The notes under the pieces are model-generated. The model did no database searches. It saw only the letters and a program-made list of their open reading frames with translations, and was not told where the DNA came from. Source: Calocera cornea HHB12733 (lineage: Eukaryota > Basidiomycota > Dacrymycetes > Dacrymycetales > Dacrymycetaceae). From it: 38,844 bases of DNA. The position numbers were made by a program, and so were the translations under genes. The DNA is taken from NCBI GenBank assembly GCA_001632435.1, contig KV424026.1:30949-69792 (forward strand). Direction: 5' to 3'. Each line of letters begins with the position of its first letter. Within the stretch, counting starts at the first letter, position 1. Shown piece after piece: positions 1,851 to 38,543 of this stretch.

Positions 1851-2378
1851 ATGCCACCGACCGTGCCCTCTATCCGTATCGCGCTGAAGAGCATGAAGAC
1901 GCATACATACCTCATTCCAGTCAAAATTACCTCTACATGGAGCGTAAGCGACTGCATCTGCGCTTCTAGTCTACGATTGAACTAGCATGTCCAGGAACTT
2001 CAACTCACTCTCAGAAAGATCTTCCCCAGCTTTCAGAGTCCGTTCATCATCTATGCCGAGTCGGGCGACATCATCCACTCGTCCGTTTGGTCGTCGTATG
2101 TGACCGATCAAGCTCTGTTCTTCGTGGAACCACGTCCCAAAGAGAAGTTAAGACTGATTGTGGACGTATCCGGACCATCGGAGCCTGTCACCGTCGCTGT
2201 ATATCCTTGGGGGGAGTTACAGCACATGATGGACAGATTCGCCAAGCGGTTGGGGAAAGACCCGACTGGAGCCAGGCTGGAGAAGGACGGCTCCACTCTG
2301 CACTTGAGTCAGACGGTAGAAGAGGCGGGGATAGTCTCGGAAGATCGACTCATGTGCACCTGGAGGGACGAGTTGTAG
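1851..2378 (+). CDS. Two-domain ubiquitin-like family protein, member 2
   Basis: Model: exons 1851-1943 and 1995-2378, with a 51-base phase-0 intron (gtaagc...gtccag), giving 158 residues. The start ATG gives MPPTVPSIRIAL, parallel to MPKAAVPSIRIAL in member 3. Exon 2 opens ELQLTLRKIFPSF, aligning without gaps with member 3. It continues ESGDIIHSSVWSSY and FFVEPRP, then a SUMO-like domain of about 70 residues: strand RLIVDVS, helix with MMDRFAKRLG, strand GARLEKDG, turn LSQTVEEAGI and last strand RLMCTW, ending RDEL. There is no Gly-Gly terminus. The first about 75 residues form a second probable beta-grasp unit. Members 2 and 3 are the closest pair, consistent with recent tandem duplication. 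Confidence 0.75.
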
Positions 2379-2792
2379 CTCATGTCGCGTTAGGGTAATG
2401 CAACAGCCCGTCACGCCGCTCATTCTTCTCTCCCTTCCACCATCATTCTCTTCGCATCCTCTACCGTAACATCCCCGCTTATCCAGCACTGCATGTCTGT
2501 TGATTCATCCGTAACGGATTCCCTATGTGGTTATCCCACCTGATAGCATAACCGCTCATTGTACCGGGTGACTCGTTCGATGTGTAGGCGCAGCCCAAAA
2601 AACGGCGCGTCGCGCACCACGAAATTCCAACGTGTTCCCGCTCACGCGGACGCGTCCTTTCTGGAACGCGCTCCTGCCACAGACTTTTCACTCTTCTCTC
2701 TCCATCTACGTGCATACAGACGGTGATTAGCCCGACTACTCTATGAGCACTGTTTTGACACGTTCGAACTCAGGTCCAACGCCGATATCAAG
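2379..2792. other. Intergenic region between members 2 and 3
   Basis: No supported gene. A minus-strand frame at 2479-2715 has no recognisable content. The region presumably holds the end of transcript 2 and the promoter of member 3. Pyrimidine-rich tracts lie near 2424-2450 and 2688-2706. Confidence 0.4.
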
Positions 2793-3327
2793 ATGCCTAA
2801 AGCTGCTGTTCCTTCTATCCGTATCGCCCTGATGAGCAACAAGAAGAAGACCTACCTCGTTCCACTTAAGAAAGTCTGCACGTGGCCGGTAAGTGGAGCA
2901 CAAAATGCCGCCTCACATCAGTCTAACCTACCGCTACTAGCTTGCGGAGCAGACCATCAAACTCTTGTTCCCCGGACTCTTCAAGCCTTTCGTGGTCTAC
3001 AACGAGTCTGACGATGTCATCCACCATTCCGACTGGTCGTTGTATGCGCTTGAGCAGACGACTTTCTATGTGGAGAACCGTCCAGAGGCAAGACTGGATG
3101 TGCACCTTGAGGACTCAGACGGAAACAGACAGCGCTACTCGGTCAAGCAAAGTCGCAAAGTCCAGAAGGTAGCAGACTTGTTTGCCGAATACTGCAAAAA
3201 GACCGATAAAACGGTGAAAGTCTGGAAGAAGGGCCATCGAGTCCATTTGTCCCAATCATGGGAAGAGGCAGGGATCGTGTCGGGCGATGTCCTCAAAGTT
3301 TACTGGGCGGATGAGGAAGAGAGCTGA
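2793..3327 (+). CDS. Two-domain ubiquitin-like family protein, member 3
   Basis: Model: exons 2793-2888 and 2941-3327, with a 52-base phase-0 intron (gtaagt...ctactag), giving 160 residues. N-terminal unit: strands IRIALM and TYLVPLKK, helix AEQTIKLLFP, then FVVYNESDDVIHHSDWSLY. C-terminal unit, from about residue 85: RLDVHLEDSDGNRQRYSV, helix VADLFAEYCKK, strand VKVWKKG, LSQSWEEAGI, GDVLKVYW, end ADEEES. The spacing from first strand to last strand, the helix with YC, and the acidic turn before the last strand are those of SUMO-type domains. The Gly-Gly needed for conjugation is absent. The shared intron position with members 1, 2 and the 11691 gene shows common descent. Likely a soluble adaptor-like protein; function unknown. 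Confidence 0.78.
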
Positions 3328-3709: not shown

Positions 3710-4805
3710 TTACTCCTCCGTCTCCATCTGCCCCTCCTCCACGCGTCGCCTCTTCGCCCCCCTCTCCTCCTTGAGCGCCCTGACCTTCCTCCCCTGGAGC
3801 TTGCCCAGATCCTGCCTCCCCACATGCACGCGCCCAACCATATCGCCGCCCTCATCGACGGCCACATTCTTCCTCTTCCTCCCGAGCCCGCTCTCAACAT
3901 CCCGTTTCTCGAGCTTGCGCTTGCGCGTCGCCGCGCGCCAGAGGTCCTCGTCCGGCGGCTGGTGGCGGCGCAGGGAGAGGTCGAGCGCGGGACCAATCGG
4001 CTCGAGCTCCACACGGGGCGTGCGCTGCCCCGAGGCCAGGAAACGCATGGCGTAGCAGCGCACGTGCACGGGAGGCAGGTCCTTCCCCTCCGTGCTCTCG
4101 TTCGTGAATGACGCAGGGAGGGGCCCGAGGGAGACCTGGACAACGTGCTCCAGCCCGGCGAGGGTGATCCCGTCTATCTGCTCGCCGTTGAACAGGTCTA
4201 GCAGGAGGGACTTGACCTGCTGGAACCGCGGGTGCGTGTCAAACAGCGGCGAGTCGAACGTCATCAAGGGTCTGTGGCCCGGGGGCGGCTTGCGGCCGGA
4301 GAAGTCCGACATGGGCACGTAGGCGTCTACGCCCAGCTCGAGCATCTCCAGCACGCGCGAGTCGTACATGCGGATGAGAGTGAGGTCGTGCGGCCGTTTT
4401 TTGCTGTGTGTGCCGACGAGGAAGAGCGGCGCGTCGTTCTTCTGCGCCCAGAAGATGAACGAGTCGGTCGACTCGAACGGGTGCACAGCGTTCTTCTTCG
4501 AGAAGGAGATCGCGTTGGGTCTTTTCAGTGCCATCTGCAACAAGGGGGTTAGGAGTGCTGAGAGAGGAGGGGGGAACGGGAGAGGGGAAGGCGCACCAGG
4601 TCCCGCAGCACCCCGTTCAGCCGCTCGCCCGTCGTGCTGCCCTTGACGAAGATGGCCGTCTTGGCGGGCTCGACCTCCTGCGGCTCGCGCGCGAGCATGG
4701 CCCGCTTCGACCGTGCATTTTTGGGCTTCCTAATCCTCAGCGCTGTATCTCAGTCCTACATCTTCTGTGCGGGGGGGGAGGAGGGACTCACACTACTCGT
4801 AGCAT
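3710..4805 (-). CDS. RPF2: Ribosome biogenesis factor RPF2 (Brix domain)
   Basis: RPF2 acts in the nucleolus with RRS1 to recruit the 5S RNP to pre-60S particles. Model on the minus strand: exon 1 4792-4805 (14 bases), exon 2 4597-4729, exon 3 3710-4534, giving 323 residues, close to human (306) and yeast (344). The protein opens MLRVVKPKNARSKRA, then KTAIFVKGS and GVLRDLMALKRPNA. The Brix core follows with FESTDSFIFWAQKND, APLFLVGTHSKKRP, RMYDSRVLEMLELGVD and GITLAGLEHVV, the order seen in RPF2 orthologues. The tail from about residue 240 is basic (RKRKLEKR, AKRRR), typical of nucleolar proteins. The exon 1 model is unusual but keeps the frame and restores the conserved N-terminus. It shares a 316-base divergent promoter with the coiled-coil gene. 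Confidence 0.9.
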
Positions 4806-11690: not shown

Positions 11691-12422
11691 CTAGGACAAT
11701 GTCGAGATGATCGTTCCCAGTCGAGGTGGCAAGTCCAGTAAAGGCTGCGCAGCTGTCCGGGACTGTCCTTGATATGTGACAAAGAGCTTCGCCCCGTCGC
11801 CAAGCAGTACATCATGATCCTGCGGCTCTATCGTCTGATCGTCAAGGATGAGAGAAAGAGTCGCCTTGTCCTTAGAGTAGCGTCGACAGTATGTCTCAAT
11901 CGCGTCATCGATCGTGGGTTGATCGGTGAATTTGAACGCTGTGAGCTGTGGTCCCGCGGAGAAGACTATCGTCCAGCCTTTCCGCGTCTGACTCGAGTCA
12001 CCCTTCTTAGTGCTCGATACGTGTACGGGCAAGCCAGCACTCGACAGGAATGAGATGTCCTCTGTGTTCGATATGACGTAGAAGAATGCACGATCCAGAA
12101 GGAACAACCGCCAGCGTCCCCTGGGCACGGCCCTCTTCGACGAGGTGAGGAGGGCGAAGGGCTGGCGTTTGGAAGGGAACAGGGAGGCTAACGTGCGCTG
12201 CAGACCCTAGACACGGCGACAGTTAAGTGGATCCTCCAAATCAGTACTTGTCAATGTCTTTGTCTGGAGAGATCTCGCCTTCCATGAGTGTATGCTCTTG
12301 GTGATCGGGATGTGCCGCGTGGTGGCGTCTTTGGACTGATAGAGCTGGACACGAATGTAAGGCCTTTCAGCGTTCTCCTTTCCTTCCTTCGGCTGTCTCG
12401 GATGATCAGCGGCGCCAGTCAT
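11691..12422 (-). CDS. Two-domain ubiquitin-like family protein, distant member with a GC-AG intron
   Basis: Model: exons 12279-12422 and 11691-12206, giving 219 residues. Exon 1 reads PYIRVQLYQSK then IPITKSIHSWK, matching SIRIALMSNK and VPLKK of member 3. Exon 2 opens GLQRTLASLFPSKRQPF, aligning without gaps with ELQLTLRKIFPSFQSPF of member 2. To keep that alignment the phase-0 intron must be 12207-12278, starting gcgaga and ending gtctag, a GC-AG intron; no GT donor gives the right phase. The C-terminal beta-grasp domain runs WTIVFSAG, AFKFTDQ, helix DDAIETYCRRYSKD, LSLILDD and DGAKLFVTYQ, followed by about 22 extra residues. No Gly-Gly. It lies 8 kb from the tandem cluster and on the opposite strand, so it is probably an older duplicate. 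Confidence 0.68.
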
Positions 12423-21581: not shown

Positions 21582-24200
21582 CTACATTCTGCTCAAACGA
21601 TCAACAACTTGAGATGCTGTTGGCCGTTCCACGCGCCTCTGCCTCCAGCAGTCTTCGATCAACCTCCCCAGCACAGCGTTGCAATCTGAAGGGAGGGTTG
21701 GTCGCTGCCCTGCTACGATGGCAAAGATCACATGATAGTTGTTCCTATCATCGAATGGGAGCTTTCCTGATATTACCTGCAGGTCGTCAGCGTCTCGCTG
21801 CTATGGAAAACTGAAGTCTCTCCACCTCATAAGCTGTCATTCCAAAGGAGAAGATGTCTGATGCTGTCGTTCGCGCCGTCGATGTACTCAGATCAAATTG
21901 GTCCGGTGCCAATCGCTCAGGTGCCGTCCAGCGTGTCGTGCCTTGGGTTGCCAAGGTCGTCGTTGCTCTGTCAAGGGTCTCGTAGGCAGCTAATCCAAAG
22001 TCGCAGAGGAGTGGTGTGCCGGACTGGTCAACGAGGATATTTTTCTACAATACACAACACGAATACTCAGCCCCATTTTGTCTTCCTTATGGCGTCGAAA
22101 CTCACCGCTTTGATATCTCCATGGACCAAGCCGGGCTTTTGATCGTGAAGGTACTGGATGCCCGCAGCGATTCCTGGTAGCCGTGCAGAGCCGAGGAGCC
22201 GTCACTCCACCGCGTTACAGAGCTTTACTAAAATTTTTGACTCACTAATGCTTCTCGCACTACGTGGGGATTTTGATCCAGATAATCCTTAACATTGCCG
22301 TTGTCCATCCAAGGTGACACAAAGCACACCGCATGAGACACGGAAGGTCCTAAATTGGCGGTTCCTAAGAACGGCAACACGTTCACATGCGAAAGAGCCG
22401 CCCAGATCCCAAGCTCTCTGTTGAAGCGCTGATACACCATTCAGTGATTCATTGTGTACACATGAGGAAGCTGTCAACACCTTCTTTATCCCCCTTATGT
22501 CTGACGCCGATATATGACGCAAATGTTTCAGAGCGACTTTCGTCCGCCAAGGAGAGTCCTCGTGCCAAGAGTACCACCCTTGCCTCGTATCCGAGGATGC
22601 GGTATGGATCACCGGGCTGTCCTCGATGTGCTGAACGCGAGAAGTGATGTCCAGTGCCGTGAGCGCGAGTTCATCCTCCCTGGACAGACGGGATGCATCA
22701 GTAGTATCTTCATCATTAGAGAGCTGGCTGGGCTTAACTTACTCGTAAGCCTCCTCCTCGATAAAATAAGTACTGGTGACTTCTAGAGAGCGTTTAAGCG
22801 CAGACTGCGCAGTGGAGATCAAAGCGGCTAGTGGATCTCCACAAACTTGCTCTGGGGAAGGAAGCGTGTATGACACGCCGTTGAACGGCCACACGGAAGC
22901 TGTCCTAGGCGTTAAATGGCTATCTGAGGACTAACGAACAGGACAAGCGCACCGACCCTCGATAACTCTTCCAGATCAGTGTGCGTGGAAAGCTTGAAGT
23001 CGTCATTCAATTGTACATTGTCCTTTTTCGGCCGCGTTGATCCAAAGAAAGGATGCTTGTAGACTGATGCGGTCTGGCGCCTTTAGCTTCAGCTCACGAT
23101 GGCCGGTGTATCAGTACAGACTCGTCTCACCAGGGATCCAGAAGCCGTGGATGAGAGTGTGTCAGATACTAGGGTGTTGCTCGTGTCAGCGCTTGGGGTC
23201 TCGAGCGGGGCCAGATCCAGCTTTTGTACAACAGTGTTCACTGTTTCTAATGAGCGTGTGAAAGGCGGAATGTCCCCAGGTACGTATTTCTGCTTGTAAG
23301 GGGGAACGTTCCCAGGTATGTATTTCTTGGTCTTGACTTTGGGCCGGGCAGACTTGGTGTCGGTGGCCAGGGGCTCGATAGGAAGCAAACCACGCGAGCG
23401 TTTGGAGCTACGGAATCACGCTGCGACTTCTCCAATATTTGACTCCGCCTCTCTTCGTCTTTGGCGAGCATCTGAAGCAAGTCTCCTGGAATTGCGGCCT
23501 TCAGCTATGAGTATGATCGGTGACAGATTAGCTTATCAGATTAGAAGTTGGCCTTCGCGCGGCATGCTTACTTTGAACGAGGAGCCGAAGCGGATCAAAT
23601 CAGATATCAGCTTCTCCCTGTTGTGAGGTGTCGAAACTTTCGGTTTGCTATGCTCCTTTTCTGCTGCTTCGTCTTCATTCATGGTACATGGTGTAAGGTC
23701 TTCAGCAAGCGAATCGTCGGTAGTGAACTACCAGAATGGTGAGTATTCGAGATGGTCGGAAACTGCACGCATCTGACCTTGAGATTGGCCGCCGCCAGGC
23801 TGCGGTCTTGTCCCTCATGCTCCCCACTGGGGACATAGTAGGTGCCACCATCAAGGTGTTTGGCATACCAATGTGTTTTTGATGGAGATTGACGGACGCT
23901 CCCGTCTGACGTGGAAGAATCTGCTGCTTCTCTTCCCGACGACGTTGCTTCTGTAGTATAGGCGCCTGATCCCTCTTTCGATGAATCCATTTCATCCGTG
24001 TACTCTGAGATAGCAGGATGCTCCCTAGCAGCCAGTACTGCGAACTTATTGGCTGCTGCAGTGTTGCCACCGTTCTGTACTGTCCATGAGCAAGGAGTCG
24101 TTGCAGTGCTACTCAAAGCAACAGATCAACACACCTTTGGGTTATCAGACGACGATAGCCTAGGGCGCTTATTTCTGTTCGTACCACGTTTCTTGGACAT
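21582..24200 (-). pseudogene. TKL-type kinase gene A, probably decaying
   Basis: Kinase-domain exons match paralogues B, C and D in length: 22246-22428 (183 bases), 22106-22180 (75), 21826-22044 (219), 21582-21776 (195, ending in a stop). They encode WAALSHVNVLPFLG, CFVSPWMDNGNV, LVHGDIKA, LLCDFGLAAYE, TRWTAPERL and DCWRQRRVERPTA. The exon 22481-22679 carries HTASSDTRQGWY and KVALKHLRH. Upstream exons (24135-24200, 23778-24074, 23572-23727, 23391-23504, 23098-23352, 22957-23055) encode a long low-complexity N-terminus starting MSKKRGTNRNKRPRLSSS. Defects: the acceptor of the 75-base exon reads GG instead of AG (22181-22182), and no phase-consistent splice joins 22957 to the frame of 22742-22904. 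An in-frame acceptor 27 bases downstream could give a shortened protein, so activity is not excluded. Confidence 0.6.
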
Positions 24201-24939: not shown

Positions 24940-26369
24940 CTACGCGTTGTACATAAGTGCCGGCAATAGTGGTCCGTAACCCATGCGCATGTGCATAGTT
25001 TGTGTCGTATCTTGCAATACGAACCCATACACATAAATGTTGTTCACACGCTTGGATATCTGCGTGGCCGTGGGTCTCTGGGATCGCTGTTGCTGCCAGC
25101 AGTCCTGAATAACTTGAACAATTTCGCTCTTCCAGGTCGATGGGATCGGCGGTCTGTTCCCTGCGACAATCGCCAGTATAGCATCCCAGTCGCTCTTGCC
25201 GTAGAATGGAATCTGTCCGGATAATATCTATGAACGCTTAGAATGGGACACGTGAATTGGCCAAGCCATGAGCACCTCATATGCGGTCAATCCGAACGAA
25301 TAGACGTCGGCTGTTGTCGTTCTCGTCTTGGATGTCGTCAGTCCGAAGGTGTCTGGAGACAATCGCTCTGGTGCCATCCATCGCATAGTTCCATGTGTGG
25401 CTAGGGTCGTCGTCGCTCTTTCCAATTCCTCGTAGGCGGCAAGTCCAAAGTCGCATAGTACTGGCACGCCGGATTCATTGATGAGAACATTTTTCTTGAG
25501 CGAACATCAGACACGGCCATAATGAACAAAGTTCTGAAGAGCTCACCCCTTTGATGTCTCCATGGACGAGACTCGGAGTTCTTCCGTGCAGATACTCCAT
25601 CCCATCCGCAATACCTCCGATCTAACACAATAATGTAGCCAGCGAGAGGAGCAGGGAAGTCTTGTGCCTACCAGATTCAACCGATCGACATTGGGATACT
25701 GCTCCAGAAACTCTATCACGTTTCCTTCCTGCATCCAAGGAGAGACGAAGCAGATCTGGGCGTGATCGGTGACCGAAGGCAGCCTTGCCGTGCCAAGAAA
25801 CTGTAGCACATTCGGGTGATCAAGATCCCTCCATATTTGGAGTTCTCTGTTGAATCGCTGGAGCGCCATATGAGCTAATTGTTAACAATCTTGGAACGGT
25901 CGCTGACCTTCTGCATCTTACTTGAGTCCAACCCCGTGTTATGACGCAGATGCTTCAAAGCGACCTTCATCACTTGCACGCCATTTTGCTGAGGCGGCGT
26001 GTACCACCCTTGTCGGGTATCGGCAGAAGCTGTGCAGATAACCGTACTTCCAGCGATCGGCTCTACCAGCTGGGTGATGTCGAGGTCGACTGGAGTCGCC
26101 CCGGCTATGGAGTGCTCCCTATAACTAGTAGTCGCAGGTAAGGACGGGCTTGGAACATGACGGCAAGTGGACTCTCACCCTGAGTCTTTTTGCGGCTCAA
26201 GACCCAGCTCGCTGAGTAGGTCCGCGAACCCTTTGAGCCGCACGACATCCTTCTGCTCTCCACCCGCATCCAATTTCTCTTCGATGTGATGATCAACCGA
26301 CATGGCTGGCGGGCTAGGAGAATTGTTTCGACCGATGGATTCTTGAGGATCTTTGGAGGCGAACGGCAT
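24940..26369 (-). CDS. TKL-type protein kinase B
   Basis: Six exons on the minus strand: 26179-26369, 25922-26118, 25672-25874, 25547-25621, 25276-25494, 24940-25227, giving 390 residues with all phases consistent. Kinase features: VALK with the beta-3 lysine at about 119; a catalytic loop HGDIKGKN at about 217-224 (HGD in place of HRD, Asp kept); DFG at 237-239; MAPERL at 262-267; and DCWQQQRSQRPTA near the end. No GxGxxG loop precedes the lysine; instead STVICTASADTRQGWY is conserved with A and C. The start ATG at 26369 is the first in its frame. An upstream exon is possible, because a frame near 26480-26512 reads SPDDFKGIALQM, resembling an N-terminal exon of A. The TKL-type expansion typical of mushroom fungi fits; the substrate is unknown. 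Confidence 0.8.
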
Positions 26370-27374
26370 AGTAGAGCTGATACGCTTCTCATTGCGGGTC
26401 CCTGCAACAGGATACGGGCTGAAAGGAGTGGTGCGATCATGGCGCTTCTGAACTCGACCGATTGCATTTGTAGGGCAATCCCTTTGAAATCGTCAGGGCT
26501 TGTGAACCGCTTCCGACGAATAGGGTACCAACAGGCTTTCAGGCAGTGGACTGCGAGGAAGAGGCTTAGCAACGTATATGCGATTCTAAAGAAACATCAA
26601 GGTGGGCAGTCGAGTAGAGCGGAGAGTGCATACGGGATCCGACCAACAATCGTGACATATCAAGTACGCATTGTCGTCATCGGTTATCCAATGTGAGGTC
26701 CCATGCTGTCCGCAGAGGCGACAGGTTATCAGGTCAATGCTTGGCATACTCGCGTCGCTCGGAGAACCTCCCAGTCGATGAAAAATGGAGATGCGGCTAG
26801 TCCCATCTACGCTGGGGAGGGAGGGGCTGAACTTCTCGTACGCATTCAGGACACTAGCACTCTGCCCATGGCGTCAGGATCAGTGCGGATGCAACTAATA
26901 CGCATTGCGTACCTCGAAGCCATTGTCATCTCTTATGGTCGGCACTCCTGACCCTCCCCCGCCGTCCCTCACACTGCTCTTAGCAAGTGCCGTCGCACTG
27001 ATCTCTGTACCGCCGCGTGTGTTTTGGCTACCGGGTAGATACTGGAGGTCGTCATCGGCGAGACAGAAGGGAAACAGAGGATCTGAAAGCTGGCTATATG
27101 CAGAAGCGCTTTCGGCGATTGCCAGAGCAGTTGGAACACGTCGAATCCTCGGATGCGGCATTCGGTGTCCAAGGTTCTTTGCTGGTCTATTACGCACGGT
27201 CGAAGTAGGATCGGTCTCGTTAGCGCTTCAGGGGGACAGCGGCGGCGGTATGCAGATGGAGACAGTGCAGTGGGCGGCGTCCTGCCTGCCAGGTGATAGG
27301 GGCGCCAGACTCGACTCCATGCGGTTGGACGATGTGTCCGGGAAAGCACGCATGATGGAGGGAGCAGAGGACTC
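26370..27374. other. Region upstream of kinase B
   Basis: No confident gene. Minus-strand frames at 26105-26572 and 26895-27197 may contain decayed or unplaced N-terminal exons of kinase B. I could not find splice sites that connect them in phase. The region probably also contains the promoter of B. Confidence 0.35.
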
Positions 27375-28093: not shown

Positions 28094-29492
28094 TTACACT
28101 TGTCCGAGACGCTCCACTAGCAGCGCTGCTGTTGGGCGATCTCCACGATCTTGCTTCCAACAGTCCTCCATCACCTCCACGATGGTAGCGTTCCACTCTG
28201 AGGAAACTGGCGGTCTCTTCCCGGCTACGATCGCCAGAATCGCATCCCAATCACTCTTATCAGAAAGTGGAACATTTCCCGACAAGAGCTACAATGTATC
28301 AGCAGAGATGCCCGGTAGTATGATCGATGATCTTACCTCATACATCGTCAATCCAAATGAGAAGACATCTGACGCAGTCGTCCTTGTCTTCGAGGTCGTC
28401 AAGCCAAAGCTGTCTGGAGAGAGGCGCTCTGGCGCCATCCATCTCATTGTCCCATGGGATGCGAGGGTTGTGGTTGCTCTGTCGAGTTCTTCGTAGACAG
28501 CGAGCCCAAAGTCGCATAAAAGCGGTGTTCCATCCGCGTCAATCAGGATGTTCTTCTGTCAAGGCCCTCAGCATATATATGCGCTTGATTGATGCTGTAG
28601 CGTACCCCTTTTATATCGCCATGAACCAGACTAGGCGTCCTTCCATGAAGGTATCTGATACCCGCAGCGATACCTTGTATCTGATGCATCGGGTTGAGCG
28701 CGGCCAGCGTATGACGAGGACTTACTTACCAGAGATACTCGATCTGCATCTGGCACGCGTTGTAGGTATTCCATTGCGTTTCCGTACTCCATCCATGGAG
28801 AGACAAAGCATACTTGGGACGCGGCAACAGGCCCCAGATGGGATAAACCAAGAAATGGCAGAACGTTTCGATGCTCTAGCCTCGCCCATATCTCAAGCTC
28901 TCGGCTGAACTGCTGATGACATGATTCAGCCGCCACCGAAGAGCATCAAGTAGGCCAGACGAACCTTATGCCGTCTAGTATCTTGTGGCCCAGTCATACG
29001 GCGTAGATGCTTCAAGGCAACCTTGACGCGCTTTAGCTGGTTCCCATCAGGAGCGAACCAGCCTTGTCGAGTGTCGGATGATGGCGTACAGATTACTGCG
29101 CTGTCGTTGTCAGGCTCAACGTAAGCTGTGATATCGAGTTCTTTCCCGAGCATGTTGCCTTTAACTCGCAGCTCCAGTATGCTGAAAATAATCCATCATT
29201 GATTGTCATGCATGCAGAGCTTCAAATCGCACCTAGCACGGGCATGTGCTGCGCTGCTACCGGTCGCTTCCGCCGAAGTCGTAGGATATTCTTCCTGATG
29301 TCGGCTTGTATCTTCTGCTCCGCTACTGTCCCCATCGGTATCGCCTTCATAACGCATGCGCCTCCCCCTGCGAGGGAGGCTGTCAGGGAGGCTGATACTG
29401 ACATTGGGAGTTCGGGGTACAGGATGAGCAATGCGAACAGCAGACCCGGCGTCTCTTTGCGGGAGAGAACGGTTGCGTTGCACCACGTCCAT
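28094..29492 (-). CDS. TKL-type protein kinase C
   Basis: Six exons on the minus strand: 29233-29492, 28965-29181, 28730-28912, 28606-28680, 28337-28555, 28094-28288, giving 382 residues with all phases consistent. The N-terminal 86 residues are Arg/Ser-rich and probably disordered. Kinase features: ELDITAYVEP, then TPSSDTRQGWF where a glycine loop is expected; VALK with lysine at about 144; LVHGDIKGKN at about 238-247; LLCDFGLAVYEE; RWMAPERLS; and EDCWKQDRGDRPTA. The exon lengths 183, 75 and 219 are identical in A and D, and 75 and 219 in B, so the four genes are clear duplicates. The catalytic Asp, Lys and DFG are all present, so activity is likely. It lies just downstream of the GATA gene on the same strand. 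Confidence 0.82.
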
Positions 29493-29590: not shown

Positions 29591-30070
29591 TTATACAAGC
29601 CAAGAGGCGAACCTCTTCTTGATCACATCACTCGTTCGCCGCACCGGGCGTACAGTGCCATGTGTTTTCTGTGCCCGTCAGTTTGGCTATATGTCCATTG
29701 ATGGAAAGGAAGAAGCACGCACGAGAAACAGTCCGCAAGCATTGCACAGGACCGTACCTGCCGCATCTCTCCTCCAGAGCGGAGTAGTTGTTGTAAGGCA
29801 ATTTTCGCAAGTAGTCGTCCTTGTCTTATTTGGAGCGCTAGATCCCGTGAAGCCGCGACCCTCTATCAGCATCGCCTCATCCTCTCTGCTCTCGTCGAAC
29901 GTGGAGGCGGCACTCGAAGGGGCGGCAGTGATGTTATTCTTCTGTATTGCTGCTGGTAAGAGGGCTCCCAGACAGCAAAGTGGTGGTGGACTCACCTTCA
30001 GAAACTCGGCGAGGGCGCTTGCTGGGCCGGTCACGGCTACTCTATCTCCGGCATCATTCCGTTTCGACAT
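29591..30070 (-). CDS. Small GATA zinc-finger protein with RAD7-like first exon
   Basis: Three exons on the minus strand: 29996-30070, 29723-29941, 29591-29668 (introns gtgagt...atacag and gtgcgt...gcacag), 123 residues. The GATA finger spans about 74-113: [35 protein letters not shown], then TSDVIKKR, the classic C-x2-C-x18-C-x2-C layout with its basic tail. Such fingers bind GATA-type DNA sites. Exon 1 reads [16 protein letters not shown] and the next exon continues ITA, closely matching RVRGPTSALTEFLR and GITA of RAD7 (21329), with a phase-0 intron at the same point. There is no other domain. It may be a true short regulator or an exon-shuffled chimera. Start chosen at the only ATG in frame. 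Confidence 0.75.
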
Positions 30071-33628: not shown

Positions 33629-35572
33629 ATGAACGCGGACCCGATCGTGCAGACGTACTCGGACACGAAGGGGTTCTACGATGGGCGGCAGGCGACAGAG
33701 TACGAGAGCTACCGCGTGCAGCCGCACAGCCGGCGCTCGGTCGATTATTTCTTCCCCAAGGGCGTGGGCGACTACCACTATGGGGTGCGTGCATTGTGGA
33801 CTTGATATGTCAATGGGACGAGGCATGGTGCTGATGTGGTTTGCGTGGTGTGCAGGAAGGACACCCCATGAAGCCCCACCGGCTCGCCATCACCAACACG
33901 CTTGTGATCGGGTACGGCCTGCACAACCACATCGACCACTTCTTCTCGCCCACGCCCGCCTCCTCCGCAGAGCTCGAGGCCTTCCACGACAGCGACTACA
34001 TCGACTTCCTTTCCAAGCTGACACCCAAGAACGTGGACGAGATGTTCAAGCTGCACGGGGATATGATCAACTCCTCCGAAGACTGCCCGGTGTTTACGGG
34101 GCTGTTCGACTTCTGTAAGCAGTATGCGGGGGCGAGTATCCTAGCGGCCAGAAGGCTGGGCGAGGAGAGCTGCGATGTGGCGATCAATTGGACGGGAGGG
34201 CTGCATCATGCCAAGAAGAGGGGCGCGAGCGGGTTCTGCTATGTCAACGATATCGTGCTCGCCATCCAGCATTTATTGAGGTGAGATGAAGGATCTCCGG
34301 ATATGGACTCTTCTGAGCCACAGCAGGAAATACGCCCGCGTGTTGTACATCGACATCGACATCCACCACGGGGACGGGGTGGAAGAAGCGTTCTACAACA
34401 CGAACCGCGTGCTCACCGTCTCCTTCCACAAGTACAACGGCGAGTTCTTCCCTGGCACGGGAAAGCTAGACGACAACGGTTCAGGGCTCGGCAAGCACTT
34501 CTCGCTCAACGTCCCGCTCAAGGATGGCATCGACGACGAGTCGTATGTGACCATGTTCCGTGCAGTCATGGAGCCCGTCATCGCCACCTTCCGCCCGTCG
34601 GCGATCGTCCTGCAGTGCGGGGCCGACTCCCTGGGGTGCGACAGGCTCGGCGCATTCAATTTGAGCATCAAGGCGCATGGAGAGTGCGTGCGGTTTATCA
34701 AGTCCTTCGACCTGCCGCTGCTCGTCCTCGGCGGGGGAGGGTACACGATGCCGAACGTCGCGCGGTGCTGGACGTACGAGACATCGGTGCTGCTCGGCGT
34801 GCAGCTCCCGAACCAGCTACCGTCGACGAAATACGACAGCTACTTCCTCACGGACCGGCGGCTGCACCCTCCACTGGTCAGGAACGTCGAGAACCAGAAC
34901 ACGCGCGCGTCGCTCGAGCGCATCCGCATCTCCATCCGCGAGAAACTGCGGTACCTCGACGGCGCGCCGAGCGTACAGATGCAGGTGCTTCCCCCCGACC
35001 TCATGGCCTGGTTGGAGGACGAGGAGCGGCGCGAGATGCGCGAGCTGCGCGGGGATAGCGAGGCCGAGAAGGACAGGAGGAGGGAGGACAACCCCAAGCA
35101 CCTGGCGGAGTACTACGATCCTGAGCTTGCCAGCCCCGGCCAGTCGGGCGGCGAGCGGAATAGGTACGTCGACCCGAGCGCGCCGAGCGTCGCCTTCGAG
35201 CCGAGTGTGATACCGAAGAGGGGCAAGCCGCGCGGCAAGTCGGCGCTTGGCAAGGGGAAGGGAAAGGAGAGGGTCACGTTTGCGGATGAGGAGGAGGGGA
35301 CGGGGCCCGGTACGCCGGGCGCTTCAACCGCTGTGGCTGGGGCAGGAGCTGCGTCTTCCGCTGGAGGTAGCGCAGCGACCGGAGCGGGGGCAAGCGCCGG
35401 GGCGGGCGGGACGCCGAGCAGGGAAAGGACTGTGAGCGGGGGGAAGAGGAAGGTTGCCGGTGGGGCGCGGGTTAGGAAGGCTGCGGCCCGAAGGGGCGCA
35501 GGCGGGGCCGGGGAGGGGAAGAAGGAGAAGGAGAAGGAAGGCGCGGACGGAGAGGCGGATATCGATATTTGA
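33629..35572 (+). CDS. HOS2: Class I histone deacetylase HOS2
   Basis: HOS2 is the zinc-dependent lysine deacetylase of the Set3 complex in yeast. Exons 33629-33784, 33856-34280, 34327-35572, giving 608 residues. The N-terminus [32 protein letters not shown] and FCKQYAGAS fit the HOS2/HDAC3 branch better than Rpd3. The catalytic dyad is GGLHHAKK (His about 169-170). Zinc ligands are in DIDIHHGD (Asp 205, His 207) and [11 protein letters not shown] (Asp about 294), and LGGGGYT closes the pocket. After the deacetylase core (about 400) comes a charged segment and a long tail rich in Gly and Ala, then Lys/Arg, that ends EADIDI. This makes it about 150 residues longer than yeast HOS2 (452). The tail is probably disordered. 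Confidence 0.92.
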
Positions 35573-36959: not shown

Positions 36960-38543
36960 ATGGCAGCTTCTTGGTCGCAGTTCACTGCAGCTATCTGGGC
37001 CAACGCACGCACTGCGCTCGGATATCATGATACCGTTCGTGCCTTGGAGCCCCTATCAGCGTGACTCCTACTTTCTGAGCAACATTCTGCAGACGCTCCT
37101 ACTATCGAGGCTTGAAACGCTTCAAGATAATTGTTCAACTGCTCTGAAAGAAATCAAGGGCGTAGCATGGAACGATTCTGCTCAATCTCAAGACAGTCGA
37201 AACCAACTCGAGAGGTCAGCTTCCAATTCTGTGCTGAGACGTCCAGACTCATGCGTACCAAAGGGTTTATTGGGAGATCACCGGGGCAATTCAAGTTCTC
37301 AAGACGACCTATATCGGGGCCTCGGGTGGTGTATCAGCCAATAGCTACATGGAAGACCTGAACAGGCGCCTCGATGCGGCACGTACGGCAACACAAGCGG
37401 GCCCTTCTTTCCTGCCATCTCAACCACAACCAAAGCGCGTAGCACACGTCCCAGCCGGAGCACACGTCCTAGACGACATGCTTCCATCGGACAGCTCTGG
37501 ACGTGTTGTCACTGCCAATCCTCGGCGTGCTACTATGACCGATGACTTCGAGACGCGGCTGGGCACGTACCGTCCGGATGATTCAGTGCACACGGTTCTG
37601 GTGGCGGTCAAGTCTTCGCACGTGTACAATGACCTGTACACAAAGGGCGAACAAGCAGTAAGAGCCTAATCGCTTTTGAATGTCAAGCTCAAATATCTTG
37701 ATCAGGAATTGGATCATGAGATCACTCGCTGGATTGAACTCGACCACCCCAACGTGCTTCCGTTCCTCGCTACTGCCCACATCCCAGCGAATGGTCTACC
37801 ACGCGTCTGGTTCATTGTACCTTGGATGAAGAATGGTGATGTGATGAAGTACATCAAGACTCACAGAGATGTCGACAAGCATGCACTGGTATGTCTGTCC
37901 CGGACTCTAAAGGACGCACGATCATGTGTGATTAGTTGCGCGGAATCGCGCGTGGACTGTTGTATCTGCACACCCGGAACCCCCCAATCGTTCACGGAAG
38001 TGTCAGAGGGGTGAGTCGTTGATAGAACGCCAAGATTGTGTGCTAATTCTTATAAGTCCAACGTACTCATCGACGAGCTCGGCAAGCCGCGTCTGTGTGA
38101 CTTCGGACTGGAGAACTTTCGGGACATTACTGGCGATCTCTATCTAGGCAAGCCTACGCGGTACTCCTGGTGGCCGCCAGAATGGCAGGGACGAAGTCAC
38201 CGCAAGTCACCAGAAACGCAAGCGGTTGTATCAACGGCGTCGGATGTGTTCTCATTCGGTATGACAGCATGGGAGGTCAGATGACTGCTTTTCGAGATTG
38301 AATTTCACTCAGTCTCACTGTCTCCCCCTTCATCAGATCTACGCCGAGAAGCGACCATTCTCACCTATCCGATCGTATGACATCATTCAGATGATTCTCA
38401 GAGGCGAACGCCCTGACATTCCTAGCAATTGGACGGAATCCCCTGCTATGGCCCAGCTCGTTGAGTTAATCCCCCGCTGCTGGGATCAGGAACCCTCTAG
38501 GCGTCCTACGATGTCTGAAGTGGTACAAATCCTCGGGCCTTGA
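36960..38543 (+). CDS. TKL-family pseudokinase D with helical N-terminal region (MLKL-like layout)
   Basis: Firm exons: 37247-37657, 37706-37888 (183 bases), 37936-38010 (75), 38057-38275 (219), 38337-38543. Tentative first exons: 36960-37034 and 37093-37161, giving 412 residues; their junction to 37247 is uncertain. N-terminal part: MAASWSQFTAAIWANARTAL, LSRLETLQDNCSTALKEIK, RVYWEITGAIQVLK, YMEDLNRRLDAAR, all helix-like and amphipathic. The kinase-like part has VAVK (Lys about 170), ELDHPNVLPFLA, a catalytic loop VHGSVRGSN in which the catalytic Asp of the paralogues (HGD) is Ser and the following Lys is Arg, LCDFGLEN, and PPEW instead of APE. It is therefore probably a pseudokinase. The order helical bundle then pseudokinase recalls MLKL; that link is inference. 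Confidence 0.72.

Follow-up and report, generated by a model that had tools for sequence, protein, structure and literature searches.

Gene D of the dacrymycete (Basidiomycota) Calocera cornea HHB12733 (positions 36960-38543, forward strand) was analysed within a 38,844-nucleotide window (C113:30949-69792) of the 32.1 Mb genome. It is an intact gene under purifying selection, and its catalytic loop, HGSVRG, in which the canonical Asp of HRD/HGD is absent, confirms the predicted status of its product as a pseudokinase by residue loss. D was found to belong to a family of clustered kinase genes, many of which have likewise lost the Asp. The original prediction had seen in D a possible fungal counterpart of MLKL, i.e., a helical N-terminal region fused to a pseudokinase and acting in regulated cell death; this MLKL-type reading of the D family is partly supported.

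The gene extends from an ATG at 36960 to a TGA ending at 38543 and comprises seven exons of 75, 122, 394, 183, 75, 219 and 207 nt, which encode 424 amino acids without any frame disruption; the introns are 46-61 nt long and all GT..AG. Exon 1 (36960..37034) opens with the ATG and encodes predicted helix 1 (MAASWSQFTAAIWANARTALGYHDT). Its donor, GTTCGT, is non-consensus, and given the acceptor at 37093, this exon is the single in-frame ATG-to-donor solution of 48-120 nt. The helical region continues through exon 2 (37093..37214) and ends within exon 3 (37264..37657) with YMEDLNRRLDAAR; a linker of about 50 residues and the start of the kinase N-lobe with VAVK make up the remainder of this exon. 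The rest of the N-lobe and the hinge are encoded by exon 4 (37706..37888), the catalytic loop by exon 5 (37936..38010), which ends in HGSVRG, the catalytic-loop Asn, DFG and PPE by exon 6 (38057..38275), and the end of the C-lobe with the stop codon by exon 7 (38337..38543). Spliced alignment with an independent protein, P0001, as query gave the same splice sites in the kinase part, with no stop or frameshift.

This exon model was fixed before comparison with an annotated C. cornea paralogue of 500 residues, P0121, which strongly supports the whole of it. P0121 is a full-length fusion protein, and its gene (C49:20729-19001, reverse strand) has exons of 75, 122, 133, 50, 271, 183, 75 and 219 nt, with the last exon truncated by the locus end. 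The two N-terminal exons (75 and 122 nt) and three exons of the kinase part (183, 75 and 219 nt) are identical in length in D and P0121, and exon 3 of D corresponds to three shorter exons (133, 50 and 271 nt). The paralogues K94, K30 and K36 share the 122 nt of exon 2, whereas in K43 and K50 this exon has 119 nt with unchanged phase. One gene, and one family, thus unites the helical N-terminus with the kinase, and the exon lengths shared with an annotated fusion argue against two separate genes, in line with the fusion that had been proposed. D itself was unmatched in the protein search, the best match being P0001 from the same species (46% identity over 79% of D), and thus appears to be unannotated in this form.

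The kinase domain (37559..38534, forward strand, introns included; residues 165-422) is TKL-like and scores 116.7 bits against Pfam PK_Tyr_Ser-Thr (PF07714; cut-off 23.1). The motifs on which the original prediction had relied are all present in the D model: the Asp is gone from HGSVRG, VAVK and DFG are kept, and APE is changed to PPE. The three paralogues that it had set against D, with HGDIK(G/A) loops, are equally in place on the reverse strand, with HGDIKA at 22123 and HGDIKG at 25564 and 28623. They correspond to paralogue A (kinase domain 21591..22612), identical to P0127 except for one short, differently spliced stretch; paralogue B (25042..26042), identical in sequence to P0124, a kinase-like protein in NCBI; and paralogue C (28106..29096). 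The replacement of Lys by Arg in the loop, also listed there, is not a telling sign, as Arg occurs in two of the 12 HGD kinases from the C113, C49 and C238 loci. Chance or a base error as the source of the Asp loss was rejected, as the loop reads HGN in the closest copy of D and HGE in P0001, an annotated relative.

We have modelled 43 distinct cluster paralogues on C113, C49, C91, C231 and C238 (C91_31809 and C91_31244 denote a single model and enter the count one time; the nine-exon model of C49_4408 is less sure). The catalytic Asp is absent in 17 of them, a proportion that does not stand for a genome-wide rate, since a locus was chosen if it resembled D, P0001 or the kinase family, and by a catalytic-loop pattern. 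D as a lone oddity was accordingly rejected. Stops or frameshifts were present in three of the 43 models (C49_6698, C49_33965 and C91_41050).

Phylogenetic analysis with IQ-TREE included 55 rows and excluded the catalytic column together with its two neighbours. D is placed in a clade of six rows (support 100/99), all of them Asp-less, and the residue at the base position differs in every one: S in D, N in C49_6698, E in P0001, H in C113_83397, Y in C113_106588 and R in C49_4408. Seven further rows form another clade (97/99), in which this position is R in five, S in one and A in one. At a deeper level, the clade around D has 27 rows (100/99); it includes 13 HGD kinases, 12 from C. cornea and one metagenomic, and stands apart from nine other fungal rows. 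The tree requires five changes at the catalytic position, of which well-supported branches impose four; this number is partly due to a separate loss of the Asp in the C91/C231 group.

The remaining active-site residues on D's side of the tree are conserved. Its 14 Asp-less members, which include P0001, P0121 and a disrupted copy of D, all keep the His, the loop Asn and the Asp and Gly of DFG; the beta-3 Lys is kept in 12 of the 13 members covered, with Arg in the other one (the disrupted copy is without this stretch in the alignment). By contrast, the DFG Asp is lost in several C91/C231 members. Three genes of C91 (at 34.7, 55.2 and 56.8 kb) form a separate clade in which HGN occurs together with GFA or GFS in place of DFG, so that its Asp is missing too; they represent an independent and deeper kind of pseudokinase.

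As a background, 178 catalytic loops could be read among 187 database matches, and the Asp was absent in 16. C. cornea accounts for four of the 16, and among the 12 others eight are activin-receptor-like kinases with HRN. Orthologues with an intact HGD or HRD, which would speak against the original prediction, were not seen: no orthologue of D in another species occurred among the best 120 matches of two protein searches, and the D clade is Asp-less throughout.

Selection was assessed from ratios of non-synonymous to synonymous divergence (dN/dS, NG86). For D and its disrupted copy (C49_6698) the ratio is 0.27 (N-terminal part 0.30, exon 4 0.33, exons 5-7 0.23), compared with 0.14 for an HGR pair (C49_43159/C49_50513), 0.19 for an HGD pair (C113_98112/C49_16114), 0.27 for a C91 pair with a stop in one member and 0.50 for the very close pair P0121/K94. 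Pairs with saturated dS (C113_56542/C113_59601 and D/C113_83397) or nearly saturated dS (C49_30067/C49_36844) were excluded from the argument. D is thus under constraint similar to that on its active relatives. The disrupted copy is split on C49 into an N-terminal part (about 14.5-15.1 kb) and the remainder (6.1-7.7 kb), with a DDE_1 transposase frame (106.8 bits) between the two pieces.

The N-terminal region deserves separate consideration. The original prediction had estimated about 145 helical residues; a helical stretch is indeed predicted, but it covers only about 106 residues before the linker. A single-sequence model of the P0121 N-terminus shows a four-helix arrangement at low confidence (predicted local distance difference test score, pLDDT, 64.6). 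This model matches plant Rx-CC, NRG1 CC-R and MLKL N-termini, but also unrelated bundles. The expected helical bundle is seen in a weak model of a relative, and the N-terminus of D is probably a four-helix bundle as well. The proposed homology to MLKL_N or HeLo found no support. HeLo, HeLo-like, MLKL_N and Goodbye gave no Pfam match at E values up to 10 in the D-family N-termini tried, which is weak evidence because these N-termini diverge fast. The best hit of the MLKL_N profile in the C. cornea genome had an E value of only 0.15, and profile-profile comparison (hhalign) of D-family with Agaricomycete MLKL_N-like N-termini gave a probability of 0.3% on thin alignments. A PDB profile search with the N-terminus gave a best E value of 0.13, and residues 1-128 of P0121, searched against a set of 5.8 billion proteins, retrieved only themselves among 408 candidates. 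The exon 1 peptides, considered as a possible hydrophobic helix that could insert into membranes as in the HeLo/HELL superfamily, have the following best 11-residue mean hydrophobicities: 0.86 in K43/K50, 0.74 in K30, 0.51 in P0121, 0.49 in K36, 0.44 in D (0.50 in the rest of the D domain), 0.27 in K4 and 0.16 in K74.

One relative of D appears in a larger arrangement. At C113:93501-96652 we have identified one open chain of 15 exons without stop or frameshift and with GT..AG introns throughout (the first exon is truncated by the locus start). It encodes, in this order, a helical domain, an HGR pseudokinase (K94), a Zn2Cys6 finger and an HGD kinase (K96). The finger scores 25.3 bits on the isolated piece (cut-off 21) and 20.5 bits in the whole of P0123. 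NCBI divides the stretch into P0125 and P0123, of which the latter joins the pseudokinase end, the finger and the active kinase. On C49, the annotation of P0121 stops inside the finger (11.1 bits), and P0126, the kinase, is annotated separately. Should the K94/K96 chain prove to be a single gene, it would wire a dead kinase and an active one into one protein; JAKs likewise hold a dead and an active kinase in one protein. D has neither a zinc finger nor a second kinase. A partner kinase related to paralogues A-C, as had been envisaged for it, gains indirect support from the chain. At 94-99 kb of C113, one HGR pseudokinase is followed by two HGD kinases (K94, K96 and K98), and this order recurs at 15-21 kb of C49 (P0121, P0126 and K16), where the place of P0126 was deduced from partial matches. 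The synonymous divergence is 0.10 for K94/P0121 versus 0.81 for K98/K16. An active-plus-dead arrangement is also seen in a 699-residue metagenome protein (P0004) with tandem kinase domains, the first HGD and the second HGR.

Zinc fingers were also found beside two of the HGD paralogues of the window. A GATA finger lies at about 29735-29809 (reverse strand), some 640 bases upstream of the kinase domain of paralogue C, and scores 58.1 bits (cut-off 26.8) on a stretch spliced by eye; a degenerate one (19.9 bits) is located at about 26646-26723, upstream of paralogue B. GATA-kinase fusions in paralogues B and C are possible. The GATA finger of paralogue C and the Zn2Cys6 finger of the K94/K96 chain together imply that transcriptional outputs are also in play.

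A kept ATP site without a catalytic base, a helical domain, purifying selection and active neighbours are most simply explained if D is a switch or an allosteric partner. We tentatively favour the switch, in which the pseudokinase is gated and the helical domain serves as output. D, as a member of a tandemly duplicated C. cornea family, combines a short helical N-terminal domain, a linker and a TKL-type pseudokinase that keeps the residues for nucleotide and magnesium binding and is devoid of the base. The pseudokinase would change its state on binding ATP, or when an active HGD paralogue from these clusters phosphorylates or binds it. This change would free or assemble the helical domain, which may then act through oligomerisation, possibly at a membrane. 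The switch logic, the partner kinase, the helical output and any cell death are what we infer from the features described above. The K94/K96 chain favours a partnership between kinases and shifts the balance slightly from switch to scaffold. Its Zn2Cys6 finger is as compatible with a nuclear function as with a killing one.

The allosteric scaffold is itself a serious possibility, if somewhat short of even. Here D and its dead relatives would pair with active HGD paralogues and activate or restrain them, the helices would be a dimerisation or docking module, and transcription would be one of the outputs. The pseudokinase domains of JAKs and HER3 act as dead allosteric partners of this kind. ATP-site residues kept without a base and the mixture of active and dead paralogues in the same clusters are as expected, and so are K94, the finger and K96 in one open chain, with P0123 joining the end of K94 to K96, and the order of one dead and two active kinases that recurs on C113 and, by deduction, on C49. 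However, the unequal dS values of the paired genes are at odds with one simple block duplication, the annotation keeps P0121 and P0126 apart as two proteins, and D is without finger or second kinase.

It is rather unlikely that D-like genes act as decoys or guardees, i.e., that tandem pseudokinases with fast turnover are baits for an immune receptor in self/non-self recognition, by analogy with the ZED1/ZRK pseudokinases of plants, which are baits sensed by an immune receptor. The tandem arrays are absent from other species among the matches listed, the N-termini diverge fast and a D-like copy was broken by insertions, all of which would suit baits, but selection on the whole gene is purifying and not diversifying. 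Mere decay as the cause of the Asp loss in D seems very improbable. The closest copy is indeed disrupted by insertions and a frameshift, and three family models carry stops or frameshifts; yet D is undisrupted with usable splice sites and a dN/dS of 0.27, and the remaining active-site residues are kept across the whole clade. We give the least credence to D being still an active enzyme that uses other chemistry or another base residue. The residues of the ATP and magnesium sites are kept, as such an enzyme would need, but the six members of the clade each have a different residue at the base position, which does not look like one alternative base.

Comparison with known systems sets the family in context. 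Animal and plant MLKL proteins, like D, combine an N-terminal helical domain and a pseudokinase in one protein, the helicity of the D family being drawn from low-confidence models of P0121. The D family differs from animal MLKL by the lack of an MLKL_N match, and D keeps DFG. Moreover, the kinase domain of D groups with HGD kinases of C. cornea in a clade of high support; in a tree that has no MLKL row, this placement speaks against a common pseudokinase descent with MLKL. Among Agaricomycetes, a Mycena protein (P0018) has a Pfam MLKL_N domain (27.4 bits, cut-off 27) before its kinase domain, and P0009 is similar, with MLKL_N at 20.6 bits, under the cut-off. Unlike D, both retain the Asp (HAD in P0018 and HGD in P0009), and thin alignments gave no profile link between their N-termini and those of the D family. 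According to a 2025 review, some HELL domains sit in kinase or pseudokinase proteins, like MLKL (PMC12881547). In view of these reports and of the MLKL_N-kinases, the general architecture is not new to fungi. A 2022 survey counts 600 basidiomycete MLKL-like (BaMLKL) domain sequences among the N-termini of nucleotide-binding leucine-rich repeat (NLR) receptors (PMC9815663). Plant coiled-coil domains (Rx-CC and NRG1 CC-R/RPW8) are carried on NLR receptors, whereas D has no Pfam NB-ARC, and their likeness to the P0121 N-terminus comes from a low-confidence model. A lineage-specific TKL expansion was reported in Laccaria bicolor (PMC2838846), and the C. cornea family is likewise expanded and TKL-like; the sections of that account seen by us contain neither Asp-less clades nor a helical N-terminus, unlike the D family (PMC2838846). 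No report of Asp-less kinase clusters in Calocera or Dacrymycetes was found among the titles and abstract openings listed in searches of the open-access literature. The Asp-less tandem family of C. cornea is apparently new and lineage-specific, although its general architecture is already known in fungi.

The other features of the window include two ordinary neighbours, a histone deacetylase domain frame (34280-35572, forward strand, 187 bits) and a Brix domain frame (3710-4729, reverse strand, 126 bits). Several small-domain frames (about 567-1400, 1986-3327 and 11691-12206) are alike by eye, with ends such as TVSAGDTVTIVWTGE and EAGIVSGDVLKVYWADE, and are possibly a ubiquitin-like or related tandem family.

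In its boldest form, which we regard as doubtful, the C. cornea lineage would have built the switch independently, with TKL kinases of its own as raw material, and then expanded it as tandem copies. An ATP-binding dead kinase would restrain a four-helix domain that is active at membranes, and active kinases from the shared gene clusters would trigger it, one of them perhaps being fused to it; the Asp would have been lost early, and the site would then have drifted (S, N, E, H, Y, R, A) with the nucleotide site fixed. If the helical domain is the output module, the MLKL design, which exists in animals and plants, would have been invented a further time, here in a jelly fungus. The family would also offer a natural series of close paralogues that differ in the base but agree in their other active-site residues, with which one could ask what selection preserves in pseudokinases. 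Even without cell death, the occurrence of tandem base-less kinases with intact ATP sites among active ones makes the pairing of kinases and pseudokinases in fungi testable.
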